DNA of 64,000 nucleotides from Natrononativus amylolyticus (GTDB lineage Archaea > Halobacteriota > Halobacteria > Halobacteriales > Natrialbaceae), in contig NZ_CP101458.1 in the NCBI RefSeq assembly GCF_024362525.1, positions 2,666,001-2,730,000 of the forward strand, given 5' to 3'. Below, piece by piece: positions 24,312-30,442 of the stretch. A program made the position numbers and the translations under genes. Under the pieces are notes generated by a model. The model was given only the letters and a program-made list of their open reading frames with translations. It made no database searches and had not been told where the DNA came from. Position 1 is the stretch's first letter. Each line of letters opens with the position of its first letter.

Positions 24312-25631
24312 TCAGTTCGTTTCGTCGCGCTTCGACACCTGATAGGGGCCGTCCGGGTCGTGGAGGATGCACTTCGAGCGCTGAACGTCGGTCGCCTGGT
24401 AGGTCGGAATCGGCTCGCGCTCGCAGGGGCTCTCGAGTTCCTCCCGCAGCCGAGCAACCGCCTCGTCGTCGCTCGAGGAGGCGTACTCGGCCAGCGCCTC
24501 CGACAGGAGCGTCTCGACCCGCGAGTCGGACAGCTCCGCGGGAACGTCGTACGCTCGGCGCACTCCCGCGGGGTCGGTTCCGTCGCCCTCGTACGACGCC
24601 ACGTCGTCCTCCAGCAGGTCGTTTCGAAGCGTGGCGACCGACCGCCAGGTCGCCTGGTCCAGCGTGACGTCTTCCGGCGGGACGAGCTCCGGACAGCGGG
24701 GGTTGAACCGGCAGCCGGAGGGGACCTCGATCGCGTCGGGAACCTCGCCGACGAGTTCGATCCGTTCTCGCTCGGCGTCGGGGTTCACCCGCGGAACGGA
24801 CGAGACGAGCGCCTGCGTGTAGGGGTGTTGGGGGTTGTCGATGATCTCGTCGGCCGGCCCGACCTCGACGAGCTGGCCGAGGTACATGATGCCGATACGG
24901 TCGCAGACGTGTTTGAGCAGCGAGAGGTCGTGGCTGATGTACAGCGCCGTCAGCCCCAGCTCCGACTGGAGCCGGTCGAAGACGTCGAGGATGCTCGCTC
25001 GAATCGAGACGTCGAGCATGCTCGCGGGCTCGTCGGCGAGTAGGAACGACGGCTCGAGCACCAGCGCCCGCGCGATCCCCACTCGCTGGCGCTCGCCGCC
25101 GCTGAGCTCGCTCGGGTACTCGCTGGCGTACGCCTCCGGCGGTTCGAGTCCGGCCATCTCGAGGGTCTCGAGTACCCGCGCCTCCCGCTCCTCGGTCGAA
25201 TCGAAGCCGTGGACGATGAGCGGTTCTTCGACCCATTCGTACACCGTAAACCGGGGGTTGATCGAGTCGTAGGGGTTCTGGTGGATGATCTGTGCCTCGC
25301 GGCGGAACGCCTTCAGGTCGCCCCCGGAGAGGTCGGTGACGTCCTCGCCGTCGAAGTAGATCCGCCCGTCGGTGGGTTCGATGAGCTTGATCGCCGTCTT
25401 GCCGAGGGTCGTCTTGCCACAGCCGGACTCCCCGGCCAGCCCGAACGCCTCCCCCTCGGCGATCGAGAGCGTGACGTCGTCGACGGCGTGGACGTACTGG
25501 GAGGACTCCCCGCGAAGGATCCGGGCGAGTACGCCGCGGTTGACCGGGAAGTGTTTGTCGACGCCCTCGAGGCTCAGCTTCGCCTCACCGCCTTCATCGT
25601 CGAGGATCTCGGTTTCGGAGACGATCGACAT
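24312..25631 (-). CDS. dppF: Peptide-type ABC transporter ATPase 2
   Basis: A 439-residue ATPase of the DppF/OppF type. Walker A GESGCGKTT (about residues 68-76), Q-loop 'IIHQNPYDSINPRF', signature LSGGERQRVGIARAL, Walker B LLADEPASMLDVS and switch His in YISHDLSLL. After the ATPase core come the usual Pro-rich oligopeptide-transporter C-terminal region (HPYTQALVSSVP) and Cys motif (CRFNPRCPE), then an extra haloarchaeal stretch of about 100 residues with two more cysteines near the end. Last gene of the five-gene importer; its ATG overlaps the stop of the other ATPase by one base. Confidence 0.9.
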   Translation of the reverse strand: MSIVSETEILDDEGGEAKLSLEGVDKHFPVNRGVLARILRGESSQYVHAVDDVTLSIAEGEAFGLAGESGCGKTTLGKTAIKLIEPTDGRIYFDGEDVTDLSGGDLKAFRREAQIIHQNPYDSINPRFTVYEWVEEPLIVHGFDSTEEREARVLETLEMAGLEPPEAYASEYPSELSGGERQRVGIARALVLEPSFLLADEPASMLDVSIRASILDVFDRLQSELGLTALYISHDLSLLKHVCDRIGIMYLGQLVEVGPADEIIDNPQHPYTQALVSSVPRVNPDAERERIELVGEVPDAIEVPSGCRFNPRCPELVPPEDVTLDQATWRSVATLRNDLLEDDVASYEGDGTDPAGVRRAYDVPAELSDSRVETLLSEALAEYASSSDDEAVARLREELESPCEREPIPTYQATDVQRSKCILHDPDGPYQVSKRDETN

Positions 25632-26686
25632 CAGTCGTCACCCTCCCGGAGCGGCGTCTCGGGTTCGCCGACGTCCATCTCCATCCACGTCTCCTTCTGG
25701 TCCGCCCGGCGGCGGAGTTCGTCGGCCTCGTCGGCCCGGTGGCACTCGACGACGTGGCCGTCGTCGTACTCCTCGGGCTCGGGGGTGACGTCCCAGCACT
25801 CGTCCTCGGCGAACGGACACCGCGGAGCGAACCGACACCCCTCCCCCGGGTCGACGAGTTCGGGCGGCGTTCCCGGGATCGAGATGAGTTCGTCGTCCGA
25901 GTCGCCGATGTCCGGGAACGCGTTTCGCAGCCCGAGCGTGTAGGGATGGCGCGGGTTCTTGATGATCGTGGCCGCGTCGGCCTGCTCGACGATCCGGCCG
26001 CCGTAACAGACGGCGATCCGATCCGCGGTTTCGCTCACGACGGAGATGTCGTGGGTGATCAGGATCATCGCGCTGTCGAACTCCGCTTGCATCTCCGTGA
26101 TCGTCTCGAGGATGCGATCCTGAATCACCACGTCCAGCGCGGTCGTCGGCTCGTCGGCGAGCACCAGCTTGGGCTCGAGACAGAGCGCCAGGGCGATCAT
26201 CGCCCGCTGGGCCATGCCGCCGGAGAACTGGTGTGGGTAGTCGTCGATCCGATCGGGGTCGATCCCGAGTTCGGCGAACAGCTCTCGCGCGCGGTCTTTC
26301 GCCTCGGCTTTCGAGACGCCGTCCTCGTGATAGCGGATCACCTGGACGATCTGCTGGCCGACGGTGTACACCGGATCGAAGCTGTTCATCGCGTTCTGCG
26401 GGATCATCGAGACCTCCTGCCACCGGATCTGCTTTCGCAGCTCCCGCTCGGAGAGTTCGGTAATCTCCGTGCCGTCGAAGTCGATCGAGCCGTCGATGAC
26501 CTCGGCGTTGTCGGGGAGCAGCCGGATGACCGACCGTGCGATCGTCGTCTTCCCCGATCCGCTCTCGCCGACGAGCCCCAGGGTTCGTCCCCGCTCGAGC
26601 TCGAGGTTGATGTCGTCCGCCGCCCGGACGTAACCGTCCTCGCTACGATAGTACATCCGTAGACCGTCGATTGTGAGTAGCGTCAT
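25631..26686 (-). CDS. dppD: Peptide-type ABC transporter ATPase 1
   Basis: A 351-residue ATPase of the DppD/OppD type: Walker [10 protein letters not shown], '[16 protein letters not shown]' Q-loop, signature [15 protein letters not shown], Walker [15 protein letters not shown] and switch His [10 protein letters not shown]. The C-terminus carries the oligopeptide-transporter motif with cysteines CRFAPRCPF and DECW. It pairs with the second ATPase to drive import through the two permeases. It lies 31 bases after the DppC gene. Confidence 0.9.
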
Positions 26687-26717: not shown

Positions 26718-27680
26718 TCATTGCGTGTGGCGGAGTTCGGGGTTGACCACCTTCTCTAGCGAGCGGCCGATGAAGAACACCGACATCACGAACAGCATGA
26801 TGCAGATCCCCGGCGGGAACACCCACCACCACGCCTCGCGCAGCGCCCCGGCGCTGCGGACGTCGTAGATGATCTCGCCCCACGAGAGCATCCCCGGCGG
26901 CCCCAGTCCGAGAAACGAGAGGCTGGCCTCGGCGATCACGGCCCAGGCGACCGCGAACGCGGCGTACAGCGAGATCAGCGGCAGGACGTTCGGCATGATC
27001 TGGACGTACATGATCCGGAAGTTGCTCGCACCGATCGCCTTCGCGCTCTCGACGTACGGGCGTTGCTTGTGGCTCAGCACCTGCGACCTGACGACGCGAG
27101 CGGTCCCCCGCCAGAGGATCAACACGATCGCGAAGATGACGTTCACCAGGCTGGCGCCGAGGATGAACACCAGCGCGATCGCGAACGGCAGGAACGGGAC
27201 GCCGTAGACGACGTCGGTGATCCGCATCAGGACGTCGTCGACCCAGCCGCCGTAGTAGGCGCTGATGATGCCGACGTTGGCGCCGATGAACACCGCCATG
27301 AACGCGGCGATGGTGCCGACGATCAGCGTCACTCGAGTGCCCACGATCACCTGCGAGAGCACGTCGCGTCCGAGCGCGGTCGTCCCCAGCGGGTGGTCCC
27401 ACGTGGGCCCCTGCAGGTTCTCGTCGGCGACGCGGGCGCCGGGCTCGTACGGCGCGAGCGAGAACGGCTGGATCTGGAACCACGCGGGGCCGATCTCGAT
27501 CGTGATCGGGCGGGCGAAGATCCCGACGAGGATGAACGCCGCGAGGATCGCCAGTCCCACCTGCCCGAGCCGGTCGTCTTTCATCACGCCGACCCAGTTG
27601 CGAAGCGCGTTGAGTCGGCGCTGCCAGCGGAGCCTGCGTCGACTGACCGATTCGACCTCCGTGTCTGTTGGCGTACTCAT
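26718..27680 (-). CDS. dppC: Peptide-type ABC transporter permease C
   Basis: A 320-residue permease with an N-terminal cytoplasmic stretch, a first helix at about 40-58, a long external loop holding 'HPLGTTALGRDVLSQVI' (a mark of DppC/OppC proteins), and five further helices. The ATPase-contact loop 'YVESAKAIGASNFRIMYVQIMPN' is clear. It overlaps the DppB gene by 4 bases. Confidence 0.9.
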   Translation of the reverse strand: MSTPTDTEVESVSRRRLRWQRRLNALRNWVGVMKDDRLGQVGLAILAAFILVGIFARPITIEIGPAWFQIQPFSLAPYEPGARVADENLQGPTWDHPLGTTALGRDVLSQVIVGTRVTLIVGTIAAFMAVFIGANVGIISAYYGGWVDDVLMRITDVVYGVPFLPFAIALVFILGASLVNVIFAIVLILWRGTARVVRSQVLSHKQRPYVESAKAIGASNFRIMYVQIMPNVLPLISLYAAFAVAWAVIAEASLSFLGLGPPGMLSWGEIIYDVRSAGALREAWWWVFPPGICIMLFVMSVFFIGRSLEKVVNPELRHTQ

Positions 27681-28657
27681 TCGTATTTCACCCGCGGGTC
27701 GAGGTACAGATACAGCATGTCGGCGACGAAGTTCATCACGATCACCGCCGTCCCCATCAGGAGGAACGCGGCCATCGCTACCGGGTAGTCGTTTCTGGTC
27801 ACCGAGTTGACCATCTCGCGGCCGATGCCCGGCCAGTTGAAGACCGTCTCGATGATGACCGACCCGCCCATCGCCGCGCCGGTCGCGATCGCCGCGACGG
27901 TAACGAGCGGCAGCACCGAGTTGCGAGCGGCGTGTTTGTAGAGCACCGTCCGCTCGGGGAGTCCTTCGGCCTTTTTCATCTCGACGAAGTCGGCTTTCAG
28001 AACCTCGAGCATCGTGTTACGCATCAGCAGGGCGGGCGTCGCCAGGTAGACGATCGCACCCGTCAGCGCCGGCAGTATCAGGTGGCGCAGGAAGTCGAAA
28101 TTGACGTACCGGTCGATGACGTTCATCGTCAACTCGCCGCCGTAGCCACCGATCCCGCTGCGGGGCAGCCAGCCGAGCTGGAAGACGAAGACCGTCACGA
28201 GGATGATCCCGACCCAAAATTCGGGCGAGGAACGAGCCATGAGGACGCCGATGATGCCGGCACGTTCGAACCGACTGCCCCGGAGCCACCCCATCGCCGC
28301 GCCGAACAGCACGCCGATCGTGTAGGCGATCAACAGCGCGGTGAACATGAGCACGACCGTGTTGAGAAACAGCGGGAAGATGAGCTCCCTGACCGGCTCG
28401 CGGTAGTGAGTCGAATCGCCGAACTCCCCCCGCAACAGCTGACTCATGTACTCGACGTACTGGACGTACAGCGGTTCGTTGAGCCCCAGCTCCTGGATCC
28501 GCGCCTCTCGCTCTTCCGTCGTCGGATACTCCATGACGAACCGCGTCGTCGGATCGCCCGGAACCATCCGGAACAGGACGAAGAGCAGGGTGACGAACGC
28601 CCACAGCGTGAACACGAGCTGCAGGATGCGTCGAACGACGTACTCTCTCAGTCCCAT
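27677..28657 (-). CDS. dppB: Peptide-type ABC transporter permease B
   Basis: A 326-residue DppB/OppB permease with six helices. The start 'YVVRRILQLVFTLWAFVTLLFVLFRMVPGDP' is the family signature, and the ATPase-contact loop reads 'VLKADFVEMKKAEGLPERTVLYKHAARNSVLP' (seen in part). The next gene starts inside its last codons. The binding protein gene ends 147 bases upstream. Confidence 0.9.
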   Translation of the reverse strand: MGLREYVVRRILQLVFTLWAFVTLLFVLFRMVPGDPTTRFVMEYPTTEEREARIQELGLNEPLYVQYVEYMSQLLRGEFGDSTHYREPVRELIFPLFLNTVVLMFTALLIAYTIGVLFGAAMGWLRGSRFERAGIIGVLMARSSPEFWVGIILVTVFVFQLGWLPRSGIGGYGGELTMNVIDRYVNFDFLRHLILPALTGAIVYLATPALLMRNTMLEVLKADFVEMKKAEGLPERTVLYKHAARNSVLPLVTVAAIATGAAMGGSVIIETVFNWPGIGREMVNSVTRNDYPVAMAAFLLMGTAVIVMNFVADMLYLYLDPRVKYE

Positions 28658-28804: not shown

Positions 28805-30442
28805 TTACTCCGCCGGATAGTGCAGCTGTCCGCCGCCGTCCCACACGTATCCGCCCTCCTCGAGTTCGCCCTCCGCCGCGTCGAGGTCCTCGGTGAACTC
28901 TCGGACGTCGGGGTTGTGCCAGTCCTCGAGCACCGGCGCGATGGGGGAGTGGGTCACGGTTCCCATGCCGCCGCGGATGTCCTCGACGAACGCCTCCTTG
29001 GGGACGCAGTAGGAGATCGCCCGCCGCACGTGAGCGTCGTCCATGTGCTCGCGTCGCATGTTGTACGCGAGTTTCGCGTGGCCGATCGCCTCGAAGGTGG
29101 CGAGGCCCAGATCGGGATCCTCGTCGATCCGGTCCGCCTGCGACGGCGTCGGGTCGTTTCCGAGCATGTCGAGTTCGTGGGCCTCGATCTCGTCGACGAG
29201 CGCGTCCTCGTCGCCGGGGACGCGGATGAGCCGCTCGATGTTCGGCGGCTCGAAGTGGTCGTCGAACCGGCTCAGCTGCATCTCGCGCTCGCGTTCCCAG
29301 GCGTCGAACTGGAACGGGCCGCTGCCGACGTAGTCCTCGTCGTCCTGTTCGGTCGGATCGTCGATGTCCTCCCAGATGTGCTGCGGGAAGATGTAGATCT
29401 GCGCCAGGGCGTTGCGCGTGAACGTCGCGTCCGGCTCGCTGAGGTGGAAGGTGATCTCGTTGCCGTTCGTCTCCATCTCCTCGACGGCGTCGAGGTACAC
29501 CGAGTACGTCGGCGAGTGCTCCTCGAAGAGTTCGTAGGAGAAGAGCACGTCGTCGATCGTGACCTCCTCGCCGTCGTGGAAGGTGTGTCCCTCGCGGATC
29601 GTCACCGTGAACGTCGTCCCCTCCTCGTCGATCTCCGGATCGTCCTCGGCCAGCCACGGGATTGGCTCACCCTCCTCGCCGAAGCGATACAGCTGGTCGT
29701 AGATGAGCCGGATGAACTGTCGGTCCGGCGTCGCCAGGTCCTGCATCGGGTTGAGCGAGCCGATGTCCGCGGAGTAGCCGAACGTGACCTGATCGACGCC
29801 GTCGGCGGGCTGGGCCTCCATGAAGTTCCAGAAGCCGTTGAGTCCCTCGCCCAGCGTGGGGTTTACGCTCTCGAGGCGCTCGGCGTTGTACGGGTGGTCA
29901 CCGCCCTCGTTGGCGATGTAACACCGGGGCTGGTCCTCGGCGAGCATCTCCTGGGCCTCGAAGACGAGGTCGCGTCGGGCGTCCTCGTCGACCTCCTGGG
30001 CCTGCGCCTCGGCGATTTCGTCGTAATCGGGGTTCTCGTAGCCCGGCGAGTTACGGCCTCCCGGATCGGTGAACCCCGAGTGGTGCATGTCCATGAGGAA
30101 AATGTGCGGGTCGATGCGCTCGGGCGTGCCACCCCAGCCCAGCAGCGAGACGTCGAAGTCGTGTTCGACGATGGCCTGGTCGACGTGCGCATCGAAGTCA
30201 CGCTCCTGGCGGTCGACCTCGAAACCGACTTCCTCCATGTTGTCCGCGACCATGTGGCCGAGCTCGTTCCGGTCGGGGTTCGCTCCCGAGGTCGGAATGA
30301 CGAACTGGATCTCCTCGAACGCGTCACCGACGTCCTCGTCGTCGGTGTCGTCCAACCCGACACAGCCCGCCAGCGCAGCCGACCCGATCGCACCCGCCGC
30401 CCCAATTGACCGAAGAAACGATCTTCGTGAGTTCGAAGGCAT
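28805..30442 (-). CDS. Peptide-type ABC binding lipoprotein with circularly permuted fold
   Basis: A 545-residue Tat lipoprotein (RRSFL at 6-10, lipobox Cys27), first gene of the importer. Its segments match solute-binding family 5 but in swapped order. Residues about 216-545 look like the usual N-terminal two thirds: 'IGSLNPMQDLATPDRQFIRL', 'TIREGHTFHDGEEVTIDDVLFSYELF', 'YVGSGPFQF', 'VRRAISYCVPKEAFV', ending 'GYVWDGGGQLHYPAE'. Residues about 43-210 look like the usual C-terminal third: 'EEIQFVIPTSGANPDR', 'DFDVSLLGWGG', 'NSPGYENPDYDEI', 'QEMLAEDQPRCYI'. In normal members the 'GY.WD..G.L.YP' strand is directly followed by an 'I.F.I.T....P.R' strand, so the ends here are new. The reading frame is intact and all other importer genes follow. 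Ligand unknown, probably peptides. Confidence 0.85.
   Translation of the reverse strand: MPSNSRRSFLRSIGAAGAIGSAALAGCVGLDDTDDEDVGDAFEEIQFVIPTSGANPDRNELGHMVADNMEEVGFEVDRQERDFDAHVDQAIVEHDFDVSLLGWGGTPERIDPHIFLMDMHHSGFTDPGGRNSPGYENPDYDEIAEAQAQEVDEDARRDLVFEAQEMLAEDQPRCYIANEGGDHPYNAERLESVNPTLGEGLNGFWNFMEAQPADGVDQVTFGYSADIGSLNPMQDLATPDRQFIRLIYDQLYRFGEEGEPIPWLAEDDPEIDEEGTTFTVTIREGHTFHDGEEVTIDDVLFSYELFEEHSPTYSVYLDAVEEMETNGNEITFHLSEPDATFTRNALAQIYIFPQHIWEDIDDPTEQDDEDYVGSGPFQFDAWEREREMQLSRFDDHFEPPNIERLIRVPGDEDALVDEIEAHELDMLGNDPTPSQADRIDEDPDLGLATFEAIGHAKLAYNMRREHMDDAHVRRAISYCVPKEAFVEDIRGGMGTVTHSPIAPVLEDWHNPDVREFTEDLDAAEGELEEGGYVWDGGGQLHYPAE

Follow-up and report, generated by a model that had tools for sequence, protein, structure and literature searches.

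Few transport proteins have been studied as closely as the family 5 substrate-binding proteins (cluster C, SBP_bac_5). One gene in the 64,000-nucleotide stretch of the Natrononativus amylolyticus genome that we analyzed (the window) raises the question of whether a member of this family can carry the two parts of its chain in exchanged order and still operate as the binding protein of an ABC importer. The gene (positions 28805..30442, minus strand, as are all window features below) encodes P0001, a permuted family 5 substrate-binding lipoprotein of 545 amino acids (aa) that was recognized from its open reading frame and from PDB, Pfam, and HMM matches. At its start, the protein has a lipoprotein signal peptide of the Tat type with a lipobox (aa 1 to 27, 30362..30442; SRRSFLRS ... 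LAGC, with Cys27), the signal being SRRSFLRSIGAAGAIGSAALAGC, and continues with an acidic linker, delimited from the sequence (aa 28 to 43, 30314..30361), that leads from the lipid anchor to the first folded piece. This moved piece (aa 44 to 215, 29798..30313) corresponds to the C-terminal part of the family and comprises the second half of lobe 2, including the GWG ligand strand, and then the terminal lobe 1 segment. The piece behind it (aa 216 to 545, 28808..29797) corresponds to the N-terminal part of the family, with lobe 1 and the first half of lobe 2, and the chain stops at the cut. The peptides that a first-pass annotation had quoted in proposing a permuted binding protein were all found, in the order stated; the annotation had named no strand. 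Just upstream of this gene, on the same strand, lies a gene for a secreted thioredoxin/DsbA-like protein (PF13462, 30784-31749), which has an unusually long Glu/Pro repeat tail of the PEEEEPEE type (~90 residues).

The exchanged order was recovered in three kinds of profile comparison. Searches with phmmer against PDB chains aligned residues 14-323 of 8efz to P0001 219-533 and residues 336-454 to P0001 44-171; likewise, residues 47-345 of AppA (1xoc) aligned to P0001 242-533 and residues 343-497 to P0001 29-188, so that the order was reversed in both cases. The Pfam model PF00496, whose alignment in two pieces had been suggested as a check, scored 214.6 bits on P0001 (cut-off 32.4; E=3e-63) in two stretches, the C-terminal piece covering profile positions 1-286 and the N-terminal piece positions 287-351, with no gap at the 286/287 cut. 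A canonical HMM, trained on six canonical paralogs from the N. amylolyticus genome itself, matched residues 6-41 with model positions 27-60 (signal and lipobox), residues 44-177 with model positions 393-523 (45 bits), and residues 218-536 with model positions 73-393 (190 bits). A collinear full-length family alignment of P0001 was sought and not found. P0001 is thus a permuted variant rather than an ordinary member, since its match has the expected profile length and its segments depart from the canonical SBP_bac_5 order. The two pieces are complementary, occur once each, abut at one position, and have the old termini joined; P0001 is circularly permuted and keeps its signal peptide at the front. 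The same order in dozens of relatives, together with these comparisons, bears out the original proposal.

A permutation seen in a single assembly could be an assembly error or a decaying rearranged gene, a reading for which we found no support and which can be dismissed, as orthologs of 71-86% identity in independent assemblies have the identical swapped order, the order recurs in dozens of genomes, including single-contig ones, and on complete plasmids, the frame is open throughout, and both pieces are under purifying selection (dN/dS 0.13-0.26 between P0001 and its orthologs).

Published lobe boundaries place the rearrangement within the fold. In canonical cluster C proteins, domain I of lobe 1 contains both the N- and the C-terminal segment, and the part of the chain that is cut here lies inside lobe 2 (AliD, PMC11192437; SapA, PMC8519434). 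With these boundaries, the order along the permuted chain is lobe 2b - lobe 1 - lobe 2a, and two lobe crossings are kept. The canonical chain runs from lobe 1 to lobe 2 and back to lobe 1; in the permuted chain, the old ends would be fused directly and the new ends would lie in a variable lobe 2 loop. P0001 would most likely adopt one compact bilobed cluster C fold. It is very improbable that it instead comprises two independently working domains, in which a fragment of family 5 type would be joined to a truncated binding protein. AlphaFold2, run on a four-sequence alignment (the window protein and loci L016-L018), did not show a compact fold, but its pLDDT of 37.8 speaks neither for nor against the bilobed fold of the family with its extra domain and two-strand hinge. 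The pieces meet at a single model position without loss or repetition of any part (PF00496 1-286 and 287-351), and the stretch that joins the old C-terminus to the old N-terminus is short and hardly varies in length. By the published boundaries, moreover, each piece alone would hold only part of lobe 2, the N-terminal piece just half of it, which makes independent domains, an outcome that the first-pass annotation had set against its own proposal, unlikely. Fusion of unrelated domains was also considered and rejected.

Four further importer genes adjoin the P0001 gene: a DppB-type permease (27677..28657; PF00528 and PF19300), which falls in the permease clade of the main permuted type described below; a DppC-type permease (26718..27680; PF00528); and DppD-type (25631..26686) and DppF-type (24312..25631) ATPases, both with PF00005 and oligo_HPY PF08352. 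The locus thus has the two BPD_transp_1 permease genes and two oligo_HPY ATPase genes of a family 5 importer side by side. This complete importer, together with the purifying selection on both pieces, agrees with the earlier description of an intact operon. Permease and ATPase genes also adjoin 34 of the 40 permuted loci examined; the others are five orphans (L116, L117, L128, L132, and L135) and one partial locus. L116 (G000:C1:355736-357523) and L117 (G000:C1:1384583-1386310) are permuted proteins of the same genome as the window with no permease genes within ~5 kb, so that not every permuted member need serve its own importer; these two are possibly orphans that use another importer, or sensors.

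In relatives, the operon neighbors include genes for M20 and M28 peptidases, hydantoinase/oxoprolinase, D-aminoacylase, and dipeptide epimerase or creatininase, which points to peptides and related amides as ligands. No such peptidase or amide-enzyme neighbor was recognized in the operon of the window, and for its importer this ligand class is only a guess. In the phmmer comparison with PDB chains, W103 of P0001 aligns with the Trp of the DppA GWTG motif. In Ami proteins, the amino end of the peptide is held by the strand equivalent to the GWG strand together with an Asp close by (PMC11192437); E108 of P0001 may stand in place of that Asp, though this is uncertain. We infer that P0001 binds a ligand and takes part in transport: it would capture a peptide or peptide-like ligand by a Venus-flytrap motion and would pass it to its own BC permease, energized by the DF ATPases. 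In E. coli DppABCDF, the DppB scoop lies between the lobes and touches both (PMC12136057), and by analogy a folded permuted protein would be expected to dock in the same way.

The first-pass annotation had called a permuted binding lipoprotein unusual and had suggested a search of other haloarchaea. Its description holds for the family at large and does not hold within haloarchaea, where the subfamily is widespread: at least 60 of 146 Halobacteriales genomes, from many families and including single-contig genomes, had a match spanning both pieces collinearly with P0001. The N. amylolyticus genome (3.99 Mb) alone encodes about 17 family 5 proteins, four of which are permuted; in each of these, the main PF00496 match extends no further than profile position 286-287 of 368, versus 339-366 in the canonical paralogs. 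Across 148 phylum-wide genomes, the matches listed outside the order cover only the C-terminal piece of P0001, like canonical proteins. Among bacteria, for which the survey consisted of plasmids only, 46 plasmid records match P0001 over at least 80% of its length at a single place, and these include six families of Alphaproteobacteria (Nitratireductor, Ketogulonicigenium, Roseomonas, Microvirga, Neorhizobium, and Maritalea). IMG/VR yielded no relatives at first and then two weak matches only, both canonical in order. Classing the fetched proteins with the canonical HMM gave 64 permuted and 46 canonical proteins, counts that include some duplicate loci, and one left open that was then read as permuted.

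Where permuted records were annotated, the product name was 'ABC transporter substrate-binding protein' only; profile-based annotation and collinear alignment miss about one-third of each permuted protein. Among the best 60 of 112 matches to solved structures, none was collinear with the permuted profile, and the best stretches start at a profile position of at least 185. A literature search, in a library with few subscription journals, turned up no report of a permuted binding protein from family 5 or cluster C. Permuted family 5 proteins thus form a widespread and apparently undescribed subfamily.

All permuted proteins that were classified, except the L077 group, have a chain end that fits one common cut (type A). 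These chains end behind a motif of the type AG(Y/F).(W/Y)..DG.L, past which canonical relatives run on into the strand that opens the moved piece. The loop that holds this cut is the one that varies most in length among canonical members (97-98th percentile). The L077 group, with the relatives L112-L115 from four genomes of the family to which the window belongs, is cut ~20-25 residues earlier (type B). The helix PAEELIQ.GFEAAG precedes the cut in type A and follows the lipobox in type B, in which the chain ends at TPISPMLEEY...EEYVRPN; the type B cut lies in a variable loop on the other side of this helix (86th percentile in canonical members). The type B loci L112-L115 (e.g., L113:5633-7300) have a complete importer operon. 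An extra cut site at model positions 357-361 (L004, L074-L078, and L081) was dropped except for L077, because the other sequences reach an AG(F/Y).Y.D.G.L-type end, that is, the type A cut. Two nearby cut sites suggest loops that tolerate new termini, which would be useful for sensor design.

Whether the two types go back to one event was addressed with trees of the permeases and of the binding proteins, the latter built from the unrearranged middle segment. In the permease tree, one clade (100/99) unites the 29 permeases of type A; those of type B, four in all, group with that of a canonical importer (100/98); and a single clade of both types is rejected (AU p=0.001). In the binding protein tree, type A is not strictly one group in the free search, but one type A clade is not rejected (AU p=0.82) and reaches a higher likelihood than the free-search tree; type B sits among canonical sequences, and a single clade of both types is not rejected (AU p=0.355). 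In the first binding protein tree, L077 stood next to the binding protein of the canonical importer L012/L147, the one that is paired with the type B permeases, and, among canonical importers, that of L147 is the most closely related to the type B permuted ones. L147 itself (C1:233000-243000 of the N. amylolyticus genome; a frame of 762 aa) is a family 5 protein of the canonical kind that appears to carry ~60 inserted residues.

A single permutation whose cut later shifted by one helix would fit the short distance of ~20-25 residues between the cuts and the failure of the binding protein tree to reject a joint clade. We consider it unlikely, given the permease tree, which rejects that clade and groups type B with a canonical importer, and given the position of L077 beside the L012/L147 binding protein. 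Because the operons suggest that binding protein and permease are inherited together, the permease tree implies at least two permutation events, and type B is probably a separate permutation at the neighboring loop, within the family of the window. We favor, with some reserve, a history of at least two independent permutations at neighboring lobe 2 loops, one of which founded a large subfamily with its own permease clade that crossed between haloarchaea and Alphaproteobacteria, and in which the shift of the termini to the other lobe may alter docking or tethering.

What the permutation does to tethering bears on a further claim of the annotation, namely that the lipid anchor is now attached to a different lobe. 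For the archaeal permuted members, which are lipoproteins, this stands, and the anchor would be on lobe 2. It does not extend to the alphaproteobacterial type A members, which have a signal peptide without a lipobox and are presumably soluble. These members are permuted all the same, so tethering is not a general reason for permutation. That the permutation is a tethering adaptation, with selection favoring an anchor on lobe 2, thus appears improbable to us, even though archaeal permuted members are lipoproteins and a comparable idea has been proposed for the tethered Tp0684 of Treponema pallidum (PMC4990184); apart from the alphaproteobacterial members, canonical haloarchaeal paralogs in the N. 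amylolyticus genome are tethered via the usual N-terminus.

We are confident in the overall reading that P0001 is a working permuted Dpp/Opp-type binding protein with an ordinary fold, that type A is old and inherited with its importer, and that type B is probably separate. The permuted order would have arisen probably by tandem duplication followed by trimming, and type A would since have been inherited together with the importer in many haloarchaea and some Alphaproteobacteria.

Among known systems, the closest are the canonical cluster C proteins DppA, OppA, AppA, NikA, and AliD, which are homologous to P0001 over both pieces, share its motifs, among them the GW(G/T) ligand strand, and belong to the same type of importer operon; P0001 differs from them in the swapped order of its pieces, in having both termini in lobe 2 rather than lobe 1, and in the fusion of the old termini. 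A subfamily with inverted topology offers a natural test of how chain order relates to flytrap motion, permease docking, and tethering site. At the root of the binding-protein superfamily, a topology switch (domain dislocation) separates the type I and type II periplasmic binding protein fold classes; it is likewise a topological rearrangement, whereas the P0001 type belongs, as a subfamily, to cluster C of class II. The nearest precedent for the permuted order is Tp0684 (TpMglB-2), a cluster B lipoprotein that is permuted yet folds and binds glucose, and for which its authors proposed the name 'cluster Bc' (PMC4990184). In both Tp0684 and P0001, the binding lipoprotein of an ABC importer is circularly permuted by nature, with the bilobed fold and ligand binding proven for Tp0684. 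They differ in that Tp0684 is a cluster B glucose binder with a cut in the N-lobe sheet that adds a fourth hinge crossing, an unrelated event in an unrelated family, and P0001, with SBP_bac_5 as its sole Pfam match, falls outside cluster Bc by homology. By analogy, the permuted cluster C group would be 'cluster Cc'.
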